Assembly: GCA_014905825.1 (NCBI GenBank)
Contig: JACGCN010000004.1
Coordinates: forward strand, 2,418,001 to 2,482,000
Direction: 5' to 3'
Source: Lyophyllum atratum
Lineage: Eukaryota; Basidiomycota; Agaricomycetes; Agaricales; Lyophyllaceae
DNA: 64,000 nt
A program made the translations under genes and the position numbers. The first letter of the stretch is position 1, and every line of letters starts with the position of its first letter. The notes below the pieces were generated by a model. That model worked only from the letters and a program-made list of their open reading frames with translations. It was not told where the DNA came from and searched no databases. This document shows, piece after piece, positions 970 to 9,314 of this stretch.

Positions 970-2493
970 TCATACACCTGAGTAGTCCAAGCTCGGCAGG
1001 ATAGGCAGCTTCAAGTCCAACCCTACCTCCCTGAGCAGTGCCACCTTCTCATTGAACGTCTCGTCCCTGACTTCGAGTGTTCCTTGCTCCCCGCACCACC
1101 CCGCCGGCGCGTTGGTCCAAGTCACAACCACCCTTTCCAACATCCTCAGAGGAGGGCTCACAGGGACAAATAATCGTCGTCCAAGAGCGAGAAGCACAGC
1201 ATCGTCATGTAAGGAAAACATCAGGACTCCCATTTCCTTCATTCCATCCCATAGAAAATCGCGCACGTCTTCTGGGATACCGTCCGTGATGGATAAGGAG
1301 GTGAGATTGGGGAGGAGGATGTCCTGCATGCCATCATAGCCGATTTCTCTGAGGAGTTTGGGATAATCATGGCATTCTGAAGCATGTAAGTTCAGTGTCT
1401 CGATGCTTGGGGTACCCCGGAGGAAGACCAGGAGTGAGTCAGAAGGGGCAGAGACGCGGGAAAGCGTGAGATGGCGGAGGGGAAATGGATGAGAGCGCTC
1501 CCGAAGGTCGATGAGTGCATAGGCGATCCTGCGATCTGCGGAAAAGTCCGCCGCGATGGATAGAGTATCCAAGCGTGGTAGACTAAAGGCTTGAAAAAGA
1601 GGTGCAAACCTACTCCCGGACGACCCCGAGAAACGGACGCTAAGGTAGATGAGATGAGGAAGCACGACAGGGATTCTGACATCCGGTGGATCCCAGTGTT
1701 CGGCATCGGTGTAGCGGTTGATGGACATTTCGCATTCTACGAGGCTCGTACATTCCATAAGCACAGAGCGTGCCCGGGTGGGGTGCAAACTTTCTGATTC
1801 GAAGAGCTTTAAGGAGGTAATTTGCGACCAGGGCACGTTGGACAACATGTGTCGGACAAAACTGGACATAGAGTAGGAATTGAGCGTGATTTTCTTCAGG
1901 CTGCGGCACCCAGAGAAGTCGATCTTCTTGCCTTTAACGAGACGGGATTCCCAGCTGTTATCGTGAACGTTATAGTTTGTCAACGCGATAGATTCAAGAC
2001 ATGCGAGATCATGGGGCTTTACGCTGAGCAGAGAGCGATACACTTCTGGCTGCGCGGAAATTTCGAGGTGCTGTATACGAGGAAGGAAGGGGACGAGGGC
2101 CGTCTCGATGATACGAGGGTTTTCGGAAAGTACCTCCAAGGTAGGAAAGTCGTATGACATGCTGAGAGGACGAACGCCCGCGTTCTTAGTCCAGTGGTGA
2201 ACAAAGGCATTGAGGGAACCAGGACGTAGTTTAGTGTTGTAGGATATCTCGAGAGATGTCCAGAGGCGTGTGATAGATGTGGCGAGCGCGCGCCATGCGG
2301 TGCAAACCCCCATTAACTGCAGAGGAGCAATGGTTATGGACGGACGAGTCGGTCGGTCAGGGATGCTGAGGATGAATATTTCCAGGAGAACATCGAGAGG
2401 CAACTCGCTGATGTTGTGGGTTGGTTCTTCGCAGGAAGGCGGTAGAGGAAGCGCCTTCGAGTCAGAAATAGCCTTGGAAAGGTTCAGAATCAA
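970..2493 (-). CDS. F-box protein with leucine-rich C-terminal region
   Basis: This frame of about 507 codons encodes a probable substrate adaptor of an SCF ubiquitin ligase. The F-box lies near residues 28-75: an ISELPLDVLLEIF core, then a GVCTAWRALA segment and an LWTSLEI end, the usual Agaricomycete pattern. The rest is leucine-rich with irregular LRR-like repeats, such as FPLRHLTLSRV and LPNLTSLSITDG. These F-box genes form large, fast-evolving families in mushrooms, and the target cannot be inferred. The frame has no ATG ahead of the F-box, so a short upstream exon is needed. One candidate starts at the ATG at 2598 with a GTATGT donor at 2524, but the implied intron is only 30 bases, so I did not extend the gene. 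The frame is otherwise uninterrupted. Confidence 0.8.
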   Translation of the reverse strand: MILNLSKAISDSKALPLPPSCEEPTHNISELPLDVLLEIFILSIPDRPTRPSITIAPLQLMGVCTAWRALATSITRLWTSLEISYNTKLRPGSLNAFVHHWTKNAGVRPLSMSYDFPTLEVLSENPRIIETALVPFLPRIQHLEISAQPEVYRSLLSVKPHDLACLESIALTNYNVHDNSWESRLVKGKKIDFSGCRSLKKITLNSYSMSSFVRHMLSNVPWSQITSLKLFESESLHPTRARSVLMECTSLVECEMSINRYTDAEHWDPPDVRIPVVLPHLIYLSVRFSGSSGSRFAPLFQAFSLPRLDTLSIAADFSADRRIAYALIDLRERSHPFPLRHLTLSRVSAPSDSLLVFLRGTPSIETLNLHASECHDYPKLLREIGYDGMQDILLPNLTSLSITDGIPEDVRDFLWDGMKEMGVLMFSLHDDAVLLALGRRLFVPVSPPLRMLERVVVTWTNAPAGWCGEQGTLEVRDETFNEKVALLREVGLDLKLPILPSLDYSGV

Positions 2494-2879
2494 ACTGCAT
2501 TGAAAACGGGGTTAGAAGACATACTTGTGGGGTTGAACACGGTGGCATGGTAGGCAAAGGATGGCTTTCCGAAGTGGGGCCGTATGAGCACTGGCCATTC
2601 GGTATCGAGCTATTTAAGCGTCCCGGCCAGGACACATGCATTGTCCAACGACTTCGCTGAATTTAATGATGGGCAAATGCTGGCCACATCCAAATAATCC
2701 GCTGACCAGTTCGACGAGCACCATTGTCCATTGTCCAATAGCTAAGCGTCGCGTTTATCCGAGAGGCGGGATAAATACATGTTCAACTCCAACCACATAC
2801 TAAATAAGGAAGCCCTCAACATACCTTGATGACCAGACAACCAGGTCTTGTAATTTCGTCGTCTGATCACGTATTCAGC
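2494..2879. other. Intergenic, possible F-box 5' exon
   Basis: Apart from the candidate first exon near 2525-2598, I see no coding or RNA gene signal. Confidence 0.4.
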
Positions 2880-2886
2880 ATTCAAA

Positions 2887-3916
2887 CCCAGTGAAAAGTC
2901 GGTCGGGCCGAATCGAGCGCAGACGAGCGCAAACGACCACGATAACAATCGTCCGAAACCGCTCGGTTGGACTCTCCCTGGCTCGAGATTCCGGCCATCT
3001 ATCCAGCCATATTGAGCATGATCAAGCTATATAGGTCTCTCCACATCGCTTCATTCTTGCTCGATATCTTTCAATTTTGTTCGATTACGATTTCGTTCAA
3101 TTTTGTTCAATCGAAATATATTGACTCCAATAAATACATGGGCAGGAATATACAACTACGATACGCATACATACGGACGGACCCTCAGCGCATCCGCCGT
3201 CCGTCACCCAATAAGTCCGCTACCCGCCATCTACCCCGATCGCGCTAGCCTGCCTGAATATGTACCCTTATCAATAAAACAAGATTAGATGGCACGAAAT
3301 CAAAATAAAACATCGACGTACGACGAATAGGGCGGCTTGAACACGCTAGATGCTTGGCTTGAGGTCCTACTTTTGCTTCTCAATCAGAGTGTGATCGATG
3401 GGATCGGCGATACGCACACACCAAAACGCCGTCGCGGTTCGCAAATGCTACCGAATTTTGATGGGCGGGCGGTTGCTGCTTGATCGCGGTCAGGCGGGAG
3501 GAGCCACGTAAGGTAAGAGCGACACCGATGGCAACTATATGCGGCGGACGGTGGGAGTGGAACGGGATCCCGAGAACATGGTGGTCGGGGGGAAAGAAAT
3601 GAAGAAGTCGGTTTGCGGCCTCCGTCAGTCTTATGTATTTCGCGCCAAGTTCGCTCTGAAACAAAAGCAAACAATGGCATTGAGGAAATATATCGTTGAG
3701 ATGGCATGGCCACGACGATAAAACGTTTGAGTCGGATGGATTTCACATGTCCAATTGACGAAGTAATGAAGTCATCTGGAGCTCACCACAATGGCTGAAC
3801 TTGACGACAAACCATTAGTGGGTTAGAACAAATGATTGTTTTTGGGTAGATTTGGCTCGATTGACTACCGTTTGGCTTGAATAAGCTCAATTCCGCCCGA
3901 CCGACTTTTCACTGGG
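2887..3916. mobile_element. Non-autonomous DNA transposon with 32-bp terminal inverted repeats
   Basis: The ends are inverted repeats of 32 bases matching at 30. They begin CCCAGTGAAAAGTCGGTCGG at the left and, on the other strand, at the right. The element is flanked by perfect 7-base direct repeats ATTCAAA at 2880-2886 and 3917-3923, as expected for a target-site duplication. The 1,030-base interior has no transposase-like frame, so it is non-autonomous. The superfamily is uncertain: CAGTG inside the end fits the hAT consensus, but hAT duplications are 8 bases. Confidence 0.75.
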
Positions 3917-3949
3917 ATTCAAAGGTCATCCTATGAATACCAGATCGCA

Positions 3950-4180
3950 CTATTCCCGAACTTTGAGAGACCTGCCTCGAGGAGCGACAATTATCTGGTA
4001 GCATGGCGCTTCGTTTGCAACCACTCACCATTCTGTTAAGTGCGGAGTCAACATGACAGGAAGGGAAGCGTCAAGGTCACGGTTTGTCCGGAACGTCCGG
4101 AGTTTGTGCATGTTGTCGTCAAGCGTTTTGTTCAACCCAATCTGCGATAGAATCTCAAAGCTACTCATCACAAGTCTCCC
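3950..4180 (-). pseudogene. Relic copy of an exon also found upstream of the kinase gene
   Basis: On the minus strand, 4126-4031 reads as an exon containing FRTNRDLDASLPVML and ending at a GTGAGT donor. It aligns with the sequence at about 7445-7345, which contains FRTNLNLGASLLVML and also ends at GTGAGT. Similarity continues into the following intron (CCATG...CCAGATA...TTGT in both). The copies flank the kinase gene, so this looks like the truncated 5' end of a tandem duplicate. The inverted-repeat element at 2887-3916 starts shortly beyond it. The encoded family is unknown. Confidence 0.5.
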
Positions 4181-4240
4181 GACGTGCAAATAACATGTAT
4201 TCGACACCCAGCCCCTATGCTTGCACTCAAATCACAAGAT

Positions 4241-6986
4241 TCAAGACAATTGGCCTTGTTCCCATTCCACCTTTGTATCGACATCCGACTTGGGAACGAG
4301 AACAGAAGATGCGAGCAAGTCTGATGCAGCGGCCAACGCTCGACCATCATGTGTGCCAGTCATTTCTAGCTGTTTCATGAGGCGATCAATCTCTCTTGAT
4401 TGCCCGCGTATCCGTTCGAGGAGACGCTCGCGTTTCCTGTGCATAAATCAATATCGTCATCAATTCAATCGGGTGTTGAGACTTACGAAGGTGCCCTAGG
4501 CGTATTTTGTGCAGGGATTGTGCATTCGCGTCCACTGTTCAAGCACCGTTGGCATGGTCCAGTATCACTTGTGGATGTACATTTCGTCTTCAACTCGCGG
4601 CATCGAGCGCAGGCCCTAGCCATACTAAAGTGACAGTATCAACTAGGTTTCATGGAAAAACGTTAATGCTTGGAACTCACCGCTTGGCCTTCGCAGTACC
4701 ATTCTCCATAGTCCCAGAATCCATGGTTGCCGAATGGAATCTAACGCCTAAGCGCAGTGAGTCATCATCTGACTCCAGAGGAAGCAATTCGCTCGCGCTC
4801 TTTCGAAGCCCCAGACTATAATTCCCGTTCAATGCGCTCGGGAATGGAGGCCACTCGCCCGTCCCATCACTGAGTGTCAACATATCCCAGTCGTATGCGT
4901 TACTAGCCGAGGGTTCATCCAAACCGCCCATCTCCACCTTGATGGGTGGTTGTTGCTCCCCGCGAGTATGTGCTTTCAGTTGCACCCGAAGCGATTCAAT
5001 TTGTGTTTGTTGCTCACGGATGATGTCGAGAAGATCGTCGCGTTCCCTGCTGGTCAATTGATAAATGTCAACTTCGATTGTGTGGTACAACTTACAGAGA
5101 TGTTCCATACTTCAAGGTGTTTGTAATATTTGTCAAACACTCATGCCCGCCCAGCAAGCACTGTGCGCATGGGCCATTATCATTTCTAGATTCACATTTA
5201 CAACCTAGGTCCTCGCATCGAATACAGGCACTGCAGGAACGGGATCGGTCAGATAGCATCTAAATCGGCAACCATAGCCAGCGAACTTACGCTGTGGCAC
5301 TAGGAGTATCCCTCACGTCTAACATCACGACTTCTTCTTCATTCACAGAGCGACTCGCGATCTCTGTCTGAAATAGAGACTGACTCATAAACCCAGCATC
5401 CTCTCCCATTACTGGTGTCGTGATCTGCCGAGGAGGTGGGAAGCCTCCGAACAAGTCGTGGTCTATATAGCTGGAATCAACTGCGTATGTTGGAAGTGTG
5501 TCCACTTGTGAGAACGCACCTTCCGTTATCGAGAGTAACTCAACGAGAGCACCGTTCGGAAGTAAGCATCTAAACTGCTCCAAGGACGTCACTAAATTGA
5601 TCGGCTGGGTCATCCTTCGCCTGAACTTTGAAGGAGACAGAACACCGTCACTGGCGCTCAAATGATACATGAAAGTCCTGTGGGTGTTGGGAAGGATGAA
5701 TCAAGCGCTGAAGCACTTGGTCCATCGTGGGTCGATGGGTGGGCGTTTCCTTCCAACAATCTTGCATAAGTGCCCAGACGTCCTCTGTCAAACCCCAAAT
5801 GCTCCATGATGGACTTGATTCATGAGGCCGCTCAGGCCGAGCACCGCGCATGACTTGAAGGATGACCGCCGTATCACGCAGTTTATAGAATGGAACGTCC
5901 CCAGTGAAAATCTTTGAAATAGTATAGCACGAGAACCAAACTTGATGTATAGGAACGCACCTCGTAGCAGACGCATGACCATGCGTAGACATCGCTGGCT
6001 TTCGTGTTCTTGACGAAGTCGTCAGTCTCTGTATCAAAAAGTTCAGGTGCCTGCCATCTGACAGATCCGCCTTTGGAGGCTGCAGACGAGTGCGATGTCC
6101 ATGAAGGTATCTGTGAGTCAGAGACTGAGGAGATACCGAAGTCCGCGAGACGCGCTCTTCCTCTTCCGTCAATCAAAATGTTTCCCTAGTCATGTACTTG
6201 AGAGACGAGATATGTGGAAGTAAGCTCGTGATAGCTACACTTTTCAAATCTCCGTGGATGATTCCGCTTTTATCTAAGTATGAGAGGCCTCGCGCTACGT
6301 CGATAGCCTGGATGACACCGCCATGAGTTATGGTGGTTTATAGACATAGCATTACATACAAATTGAACACGAGGACCGCTCGGTCGTTGTTTCAGATAAT
6401 GCTCGATATCTCCTTCTTCCATCCAAGGAGAGACAAGGCAAAATCGGCGACGGAAGCGGTGTAGTCCATATATAGGAAGAACATTAGGATGAGATAACTG
6501 TCCCCACAGTATAGCCTCCTTCGCGAAACCCTGAGAGAAGAAAAAGACGTGATTCATACTCGATACATGCGATACCAGTATGCATATCGACTGACCCTGA
6601 GGAAGTGTTCGTCTTTGGTGTCTTGGTAAACGCGTAGCGCCTTCAGACACACTTTCTGTCCATTGAAATTGGCCTTGTAGATATCAGCGAACCCGCCAAA
6701 CGTTACGGGATCCTCGTTGTCAGCCACAATGCCCTTCAGCTCGTAACACATAGGATAACGTCCGGAAGTCGCAGCCAGCCTCTGTGTCGCAACGATGAGA
6801 CTGCGTCGGAACCAAATATCGAGGTCTGGCGTGTCTAGCAGCTGTACGTACATGTGAGCAGATGGATATCGAGCTAAGGCAAGGGAACCCACCCATTGGA
6901 AGAGATCTAATAATTTTTGTGCGTTATCATTCTGACACCCCACCAGTTCCTTGTATAAATCCACCTCCCGGAAAACAATCGTGAGT
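4241..6986 (-). CDS. Protein kinase fused to two tandem Zn(II)2Cys6 zinc clusters
   Basis: A kinase domain of the tyrosine-kinase-like type leads through canonical introns into two fungal binuclear zinc clusters. Kinase features in order are the glycine loop GGFADIYKA and lysine VCLKAL (about 6690-6640), the helix C exon (about 6530-6360), catalytic loop HGDLKSGN (split by an intron near 6245-6190), DFG (near 6140) and the APE segment (near 6050). A 43-base intron (5668-5626) joins QDFH to a linker. A second intron (5290-5231) leads to cluster 1 at 5230-5096, spacing CX2CX6CX8CX2CX6C, then a coiled coil. Cluster 2 at 4624-4487 has identical spacing and its own coiled coil, ending at 4241. All junctions keep frame. 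The start codon lies in an unassigned upstream exon. The alternative is a kinase ending at 5648 plus a separate zinc-cluster gene starting at the ATG at 5670, but those would overlap on one strand. Confidence 0.75.
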
Positions 6987-7344
6987 CTAGAAATAATGCT
7001 ACTGACTGCAGCGCTGTGACCAGCACCTGCGTCAGAAGGACTAGAGGTGAGCTGTGAGCTCTCCGACTAGGACCACAGGTTGTCGATACGCACCTCATAC
7101 GTCGTATCGGGACGACAACCGCCCCTCGAGGTCTTTATTCGCCAAGGATCAAATTAGAAACGCGTCAGCAAGGCCGCGCTGGGCGAGGGCAGAGGGTTGT
7201 CGATAAGCGCCAGCGGTCAGCAGCCGTCCATTCTATGACATGTCATTTCCCAGGACTCCTTCAAAGCTTCACTGTCAATCATATAGATATGACTTGAGCT
7301 ACAAGTATCTGGAAATATCATGGTGCCGCGTTCTTTACAACAAC

Positions 7345-8095: not shown

Positions 8096-8986
8096 TTATC
8101 GAAATACCGATCGCATGTACTCCACGTACTCCTCGTCACTCTTCGACTCATACCTCGCCTTCGTAAACTCCTTCGTATCATCCCCCAACAACGGATACCT
8201 CAGCCTATCCGTTCCATCCGTCGCCGCCTCGAACACCACCTTAGCCACATCTTCTGCGCGAATGCTCATCCGCGAGAATACCTTTCCCAATATCGCTGAC
8301 GTCTTCTCAACATAGGGCTTGTAAGACTCAGGCGTCTCACCCCCGAGCCCAAGCGAGGCGTTCGCAGCAAAGTTCGTCGCCGTGACACCGCCGTAAGGAA
8401 TAAGGCTTTTGACGAAGATATCCTGCGAGGCAAGCTCAAACGCCAGCGCCTCCGTGAAGCCCTCCAGGGCGAATTTGCTCGCGCAGTAAATGGACATCAT
8501 GGGGACGGCATGGATACCCGCGCCAGAGCTGACATTGATGATGCCCCCACCGTTGTTGGCTCGGAAGTGTGGCAGAATCGCGCGTGTCACGTCCATGAGG
8601 CCTACAAATGAAATCAACTGTGAGACGACGAAAAGATGCGCTCGCGGAGTATACGTGCCGAATAGATTCACGTCAAACTGTGCTTGGATCTGCTCGCGGG
8701 AGATCGCCTCGAACACGCCGTTCTGTCCATATCCCGCGTTGTTGAGCAGGAGATCGATCTTTCGGAACTTGGTGATTGCTGCGTTGATTGCGGGCTCGAT
8801 GGAGCTCAAGCCTTGTAAGTCGAGGCGTAAGACGAGTACTCGAGTGGGGTCGAGTGATTTAAGCTCTGTGTCCTTGTCGGGGGAGCGCATGGTCGCGACG
8901 ACGTTCCATCCCCGTTCGAAAAAGAGCTTCGCAGAGGCCAATCCGATGCCTGAGCTTGCTCCGGTGATGAATACAGTTTGCGCCAT
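8096..8986 (-). CDS. Short-chain dehydrogenase/reductase, copy 1
   Basis: A classical SDR predicted to use NAD(P)(H); the substrate is not evident. It shows the cofactor motif TGASSGIG near residues 7-14, the structural motif NNAG, the catalytic serine strand NVSSGAG, and the catalytic pair YCASK. Paralogues at 9315-10214 and 10598-11488 have an intron immediately after the LFG codons. Here the same position carries 57 bases (8658-8602) with a GC donor (GCACGT) and a TAG acceptor, and this segment has no stop. Splicing gives about 277 residues, like the other copies; retention gives 296 with an insertion after LFG. It is the copy furthest downstream in a head-to-tail minus-strand array. The upstream 18-base element seen in the other copies is not clear here. 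Confidence 0.9.
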   Translation of the reverse strand: MAQTVFITGASSGIGLASAKLFFERGWNVVATMRSPDKDTELKSLDPTRVLVLRLDLQGLSSIEPAINAAITKFRKIDLLLNNAGYGQNGVFEAISREQIQAQFDVNLFGTYTPRAHLFVVSQLISFVGLMDVTRAILPHFRANNGGGIINVSSGAGIHAVPMMSIYCASKFALEGFTEALAFELASQDIFVKSLIPYGGVTATNFAANASLGLGGETPESYKPYVEKTSAILGKVFSRMSIRAEDVAKVVFEAATDGTDRLRYPLLGDDTKEFTKARYESKSDEEYVEYMRSVFR

Positions 8987-9314
8987 CAGGATGATCCTAG
9001 GGCACCGAAAAGAATTTCCGAAATACCTCAGTGGGACGAGGAGGGCGCCTGAGTCTTGGCGGGATATCTGTGCTGATACACCCCTAACTACTTATATCGT
9101 TGCTTCTCTGCTTCTCCCCAGTTGATTTGTCATGCGGTACGAGGTAGGTGATGAGGAGCTTGACATGACAGTCAAGCATGTTTGGCAGGTCACGAACGCA
9201 CGTCTGACATCCTGCTCACTGCTATGATAGGGCGGGCCAACTGTGTGGCACCGGCTTATTGTCCTTCTGATGCCAAAGATGTATCATCTTCATACTAGAA
9301 CGATGTACAGACTC

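Follow-up and report, generated by a model that had tools for sequence, protein, structure and literature searches.

A TKL-type kinase gene of Lyophyllum atratum that appears to have acquired a segment of the zinc-cluster regulator gene priB, now present twice in tandem

Does a locus in the mushroom Lyophyllum atratum encode one protein in which a kinase is joined to two Zn2Cys6 zinc clusters, and if so, where did the zinc part come from and what might it do? The locus lies in a stretch of 64,000 nucleotides, analysed as a whole and called the window here, on a contig designated C86; genome searches used the assembly of 64.8 Mb in 151 contigs. With high confidence we read the locus as one haplotype's copy of a TKL kinase fusion gene, in which the kinase acquired a segment of priB with its introns (the end of an upstream exon, a cluster exon and a coil exon), present twice in tandem, and from which Fungal_trans is absent; the window copy would be frame-broken, and the copies on contigs C63 and C97 intact.

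Three copies of the gene were compared. Many cluster loci are present twice in the genome, on separate contigs, and the window locus has a partner on C63 (locus L009) with about 85% DNA identity; because of both observations, we infer that the window and C63 copies are two haplotypes. The third copy is a diverged paralog on C97 (locus L032, C97:16500-24000, reverse strand 2302-5084) with a kinase and two clusters, intact, for which a partner on another contig was not seen among the genome cluster matches. The window gene lies on the minus strand and starts at an ATG at 7098, common to both haplotypes, so that the beginning at 6986 given in a preliminary description of the locus has to be moved upstream. 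Ten of its introns have counterparts in the sister copy, and the eleventh, at 5668-5626, is the proposed joint between kinase and zinc part. The features in window coordinates are:

7094..7098, minus strand: coding exon 0 (ATG AG); the ATG and the 53-nt GT-AG intron 7093-7041 are in both haplotypes
6893..7040, minus strand: exon 1, kinase N-terminal region
6596..6841, minus strand: exon 2, kinase N-lobe (GGFADIYKA)
6360..6530, minus strand: exon 3, kinase; same exon in L009 and L032
6239..6307, minus strand: exon 4, kinase catalytic loop HGDLKS; found likewise in L009 and L032
5961..6185, minus strand: exon 5, DFG to APE; found likewise in L009 and L032
5648..5911, minus strand: exon 6, kinase C-lobe; the window frame ends at TGA 5650-5648, intact relatives continue without a stop
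5626..5668, minus strand: proposed intron of 43 nt with a weak donor; the stretch is coding in L009 and L032
5611..5637, minus strand: tail motif SPSKFRRRM of the kinase; outside the kinase frame in the window copy, directly after the kinase in relatives
5291..5625, minus strand: tail and linker coding segment, in the zinc-part frame
5096..5230, minus strand: exon with Zn2Cys6 cluster 1 (cysteines 5226-5137)
4681..5046, minus strand: coil 1 exon and inter-cluster linker
4487..4624, minus strand: exon with Zn2Cys6 cluster 2 (cysteines 4611-4522); PF00172 match
4241..4436, minus strand: coil 2 exon and stop

In both haplotypes the gene stands between the two copies of a direct repeat of about 148 bp (71% identity; window 7443-7296 and 4116-3982). 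Capture borne by this repeat was considered, and a DNA search of the genome found no occurrence of it outside this locus. The upstream neighbour (window 8096-9091, minus strand) is an open frame containing VFITGASSGIG, presumably resembling a short-chain dehydrogenase.

The kinase had been described as complete on the strength of its motifs, and this holds: PF07714 matches at 150.6 bits over profile positions 9-258 of 258 (6715-5705, minus strand), and HGDLKSGN, DFG and APE are all present, as is the catalytic Lys expected of PF07714/PF00069 kinases. In the catalytic loop HGDLKSGN, the residue ahead of the catalytic Asp is Gly, where kinases usually have Arg. The solved structures closest in sequence are those of MAP3K9, B-Raf and Eph kinases, and the kinase is of the TKL type. 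It resembles FslK and the expanded TKL kinases of Agaricomycetes in two respects alone, PF07714 and the class of the host. In the main texts of two papers on expanded mushroom kinases (PMC3937382, PMC2838846) the word zinc is absent, and the parts of these papers considered here assign no role to the kinases; Fungal_trans is listed there among the domains found once in the fungal kinomes studied (PMC2838846).

Whether kinase and zinc part belong together is best judged from the other two copies. At L009, the kinase C-lobe, the tail motif SPSKFRRRM and the linker form one exon of 620 nt, and at L032 the C-lobe, tail and linker form one of 512 nt. Because kinase, conserved tail and linker lie on a single uninterrupted exon, the fusion is predicted to be one gene in both the sister haplotype and the C97 paralog. 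Read by itself, the window copy could suggest two neighbouring genes, one for a kinase that ends at 5648 and one for a separate tandem-cluster protein that begins at 5670 or 5613: its kinase frame stops at 5650-5648, and the zinc-part frame has an ATG at each of the two proposed starts. However, this reading is largely contradicted by the exon that spans the joint in L009 and L032, and also by the occurrence of the tail directly after the kinase in kinases that have no clusters, so that we regard it as very improbable. A similar tail follows the kinase at loci L033, L034 and L041 of this genome, kinase loci at which no zinc cluster was found, and by a strict pattern the tail is present in 9 of the best 120 of 1109 kinase relatives (e.g. 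P0005, P0026, P0018).

A length difference at the joint shifts the reading frame of the window copy: the zinc part stands in a frame other than that of the kinase. The preliminary description had bridged this point with one of five frame-keeping GT-AG introns. Four of these (5290-5231, 5095-5047, 4680-4625 and 4486-4437) are kept in position and phase in C63 and C97, but the fifth, 5668-5626, has a counterpart that is coding in both L009 and L032. It is 43 nt long, against 48-68 nt for the 29 introns common to the three copies, and its donor scores -5.7, against a lowest value of 1.5 among these introns (leave-one-out). Its acceptor score of 3.0 falls inside their range, and the sum of donor and acceptor is -2.7, against a lowest sum of 0.2; the splice matrix was built from these 29 introns, which are not independent since they come from three homologous genes. 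Three GT-AG pairs of 40-90 nt could rejoin the window frames, and 5668-5626 is the best of them, the other two scoring worse. The intron is thus unsupported, with a coding counterpart and a donor below all 29 shared introns. The window copy is probably frame-broken at the joint between kinase and tail and would then yield only the kinase, the length difference being either a real allele or an assembly error. If real, the break is probably young, because the window branch carries no excess of amino-acid changes (13 against 12 in the zinc part, p 1.0; 9 against 7 in the kinase). The single gene first described, a kinase with two clusters, thus stands on two intact relatives and on selection, while in the window itself it appears interrupted.

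Selection is strong on the kinase and weaker, but purifying, on the zinc part. Between haplotypes, dN/dS is 0.14 for the kinase (bootstrap 0.08-0.21, 369 codons) and 0.61 for the zinc part (bootstrap 0.46-0.87, 350 codons). By segment it is 0.46 and 0.83 for the linkers, 0.61 for cluster 1, 0.93 for coil 1, 0.29 for cluster 2 and 0.53 for coil 2, segments of the zinc part that are singly too short for tight bounds. Between C63 and C97 (NG86) the values are 0.37 for the clusters, 0.32 and 0.38 for the coils and 0.80 and 0.66 for the linkers; those for the kinase (0.08) and the tail (0.11), which put the two at about the same slow rate, are rough because dS approaches saturation and the tail comprises 29 codons only. 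These values bear on the idea that the fusion is decaying to a kinase-only gene, with an irrelevant zinc part and the window copy as a witness of the decay. Such a course would fit the frame break, the earlier stop in the last exon of C63 and the fast evolution of the linkers, and a public annotation points the same way. Protein P0010 of L. atratum is identical to the C97 gene model over 324 residues, as far as a position within the last kinase exon, and is annotated as a kinase-only protein of 439 residues with a shifted tail, which counts against a working C97 fusion. The intron that P0010 needs, absent from the fusion model, has a donor score of -11.1, and the P0010 model may rest on RNA evidence. 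Decay is nevertheless difficult to reconcile with an upper bound of dN/dS below 1 in the zinc part, with the lack of excess change on the window branch and with the retention of the cysteines in 6 of 6 clusters of the three copies, and we rate it as highly doubtful. Since the intact C97 paralog is annotated as a kinase only, public annotation may hide such kinase-cluster fusions.

The source of the zinc part can be traced within the genome. With the fusion loci set aside, the zinc half has its best cluster matches at C97:793,889 (E 2e-8) and C94:329,894 (E 8e-8), and the next cluster locus, on C75, follows at E 1.2e-4. The first of these is priB: locus L035 encodes P0121, annotated with PF04082, the L. 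atratum protein corresponding to PriB, a Zn2Cys6 regulator known from Lentinula edodes. Locus L036 on C94 encodes a close PriB copy. Both loci were considered as further fusion loci and rejected, as priB loci at which no kinase was found. PriB is described as having a part in gene regulation during primordium formation (PMC10613438). In every fusion copy both units match PriB across cluster and coil. Against P0121 alone, cluster plus coil of units 2 and 1 match with E 9.5e-43 and 3.1e-33 in C97 and with 2.3e-27 and 6.6e-17 in the window, and in a two-sequence comparison the C97 inter-cluster linker (519-602) matches the PriB C-terminus (975-1058, E 6.5e-9).

The two introns that border the cluster exon occupy the same places in priB and in all six fusion units, and intron sequence is partly alignable in a DNA alignment of seven sequences (the six units and L035; the C94 copy was missed by the pattern). 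This argues that copying of the priB segment most likely took place at the level of genomic DNA, and that the unit was doubled. Cluster exons measure 129 to 144 nt, a multiple of three, so that copying one keeps the frame. With PriB (P0121) the fusion shares the exons for cluster and coil, the places of the introns and the TAKAK motif upstream; the C97 copy also shares the C-terminal tail. The fusion differs from PriB in having two cluster units and a kinase, and in lacking Fungal_trans (PF04082), which had no match in the C63 or window protein; with cluster and coil homologous and PF04082 unmatched, the zinc part is a fragment of a PriB transcription factor and not a member of that group.

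The preliminary description had suggested a search for the same architecture in relatives, and kinases with one PriB-type cluster were indeed found in Arthromyces matolae and Mycena sanguinolenta, so that the combination of kinase and cluster is not unique to the window gene. Protein searches covered lengths from about 410 residues up. With the C63 zinc half as query no match was obtained at E<=0.01 among 7218 candidates, and with C97 residues 330-761 there were 164 proteins at E<=10 among 7999 candidates scored. Among the best 120 of these 164, one has a kinase Pfam domain, P0216 of M. sanguinolenta (E 3.5e-26), and 119 of the 120 have one cluster by pattern. The remaining protein, P0135 of Roridomyces roridus, has 437 residues and two tandem PriB-type clusters, a second case of cluster doubling; a profile scan of it gave no kinase or Fungal_trans match.

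From the kinase side, the cluster pattern occurs in 2 of the best 120 of 1109 kinase relatives: P0053 of A. matolae, which over 46 residues has 63% identity with PriB, and P0090 of Tephrocybe rancida, which carries a different, N-terminal cluster. Their PF00172 scores are 22.0 and 21.9 (cut-off 21); P0216 scores 16.4, below the cut-off, and 27 of 30 residues of its cluster equal PriB. P0216 and P0053 are alike in having the kinase followed by a PriB-type cluster, and differ from the L. atratum fusion in having one cluster only and different kinase bodies; P0216 keeps PriB sequence on both sides of its cluster.

Kinases with a single near-complete domain, 92 of 124, were used for a kinase tree. 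P0053 and three Termitomyces kinases share one starred set; another, of five members, holds the L. atratum fusion kinases together with the cluster-less P0005. Because P0005 shares their set, gain of the clusters before the P0005 split, followed by loss in P0005, would be as possible as gain after the split. In the first tree the fusion label is no more clustered than shuffled labels (214/500 as low). Grouping P0053 with the L. atratum set, a grouping chosen for the AU test after the first tree had been inspected, is only just rejected (p-AU 0.042; 88 rows, four dropped). For P0216, which has a long branch, such a grouping is not rejected (p-AU 0.62), and a third independent origin in Mycena is accordingly not established. 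The combination of kinase and PriB-type cluster probably had two origins, and possibly three.

What the zinc part could do depends in part on its clusters. Both are spaced CX2CX6CX8CX2CX6C, and each sits on its own exon that ends in a GTAAGT donor and is followed by a coil exon, exactly as first described. In the sister copy both clusters have their own PF00172 stretch, and in the window only cluster 2; cluster 1 there has the canonical six-cysteine spacing, yet gives no PF00172 stretch of its own. By residue comparison, the predicted DNA contacts differ between the clusters. Loop 1 of cluster 1 reads EDLGCK in the window and DGLGLK in the sister copy, against KNLKVK in PriB, leaving one of its basic residues, whereas loop 1 of cluster 2, RELKTK, keeps three, as in PriB. 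In both copies, the basic stretches behind the clusters are reduced. In C97, cluster 2 is identical to PriB at 25 of 30 residues and keeps the DNA-contact residues and the basic linker.

The earlier proposal was of one protein that binds DNA by both clusters and phosphorylates at promoters. Cluster 2, with the basic residues of its loop and its near-identity to PriB in C97, could serve in this way, but the eroded loop of window cluster 1, the reduced basic stretches and the absence of read-through in the window copy speak against it, and we consider double DNA binding quite improbable. Since cluster 2 keeps three basic residues and cluster 1 one, the window and sister proteins are more likely to make contact with protein than to bind DNA by both clusters. 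The coil of Gal4-type factors serves to pair two subunits; the captured coil could thus pair with PriB and bring the kinase with it. In such a mechanism, the PriB-derived coil, whether or not the canonical second cluster also touches DNA, would dock the kinase onto PriB dimers or onto promoters bound by PriB, and the docked kinase would phosphorylate PriB or its partners. We put this forward tentatively, at a little below an even chance.

Other domains also occur on related kinases. Precomputed Pfam assignments give a non-kinase domain in 30 of the best 120 of 1109 kinase relatives, where PF07714, PF00069, PF03109, PF06293, PF19974, PF14531, PF01163, PF01636, PF17667 and PF07387 were counted as kinase-like. 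Accessions that recur across genera are PF15411 (PH_10), PF00564 with PF00571 (which we take to be PB1 with CBS), PF00621 (presumably RhoGEF) and PF04468 (presumably PSP1). Recurrence of the same accessions across genera argues against the mere merging of neighbouring gene models, though some fused kinase models may be merged neighbours. Ten proteins were scanned directly: six (P0030, P0036, P0018, P0023, P0041, P0120) have GATA, G-alpha, PH_10 or most of TBC behind the kinase, and the other four are the cluster proteins.

Extra domains are fused to NLR receptors of plants and fungi, and in a wheat tandem kinase fusion a host-derived domain is reportedly joined to a signalling protein. By analogy, the captured PriB fragment might be an integrated decoy, a bait for a molecule by which a parasite or rival attacks PriB, with the kinase reporting the contact. 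PriB-type clusters on kinases in three genera and probably two lineages, the variety of other domains on relatives, the retention of an intact PriB elsewhere in the genome and the erosion of DNA contacts with retained cysteines would all suit a decoy, and a precedent is provided by the NLRs of Sordariales (PMC12258605). These receptors are similar in that a host-derived domain is fused to a signalling protein; they differ in that no NB domain match was found in the fusion protein, and an immune role is putative here. However, no attacker of PriB is known, selection on the zinc part is mildly purifying and not diversifying, merged neighbouring genes may explain some of the fused models, and C97 cluster 2 retains its DNA-contact residues; a decoy is in our view unlikely. 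A wider speculation, more doubtful still, is that mushroom TKL kinases are an immune-like receptor class that has repeatedly captured, as integrated decoys, pieces of PriB, GATA factors, G-alpha and other regulators of the organism itself; the PriB kinase would be one member, and its haplotype differences would reflect self/non-self or parasite-driven turnover.

A literature search by title and start of abstract, with narrow terms and incomplete coverage, returned no kinase with PriB-derived or tandem Zn2Cys6 clusters. A kinase that carries the module by which a fruiting-body regulator binds DNA and pairs, with counterparts in other genera, would point either to direct wiring of kinase signalling to developmental control or to a decoy system, and both readings could be tested with one bait protein, PriB.
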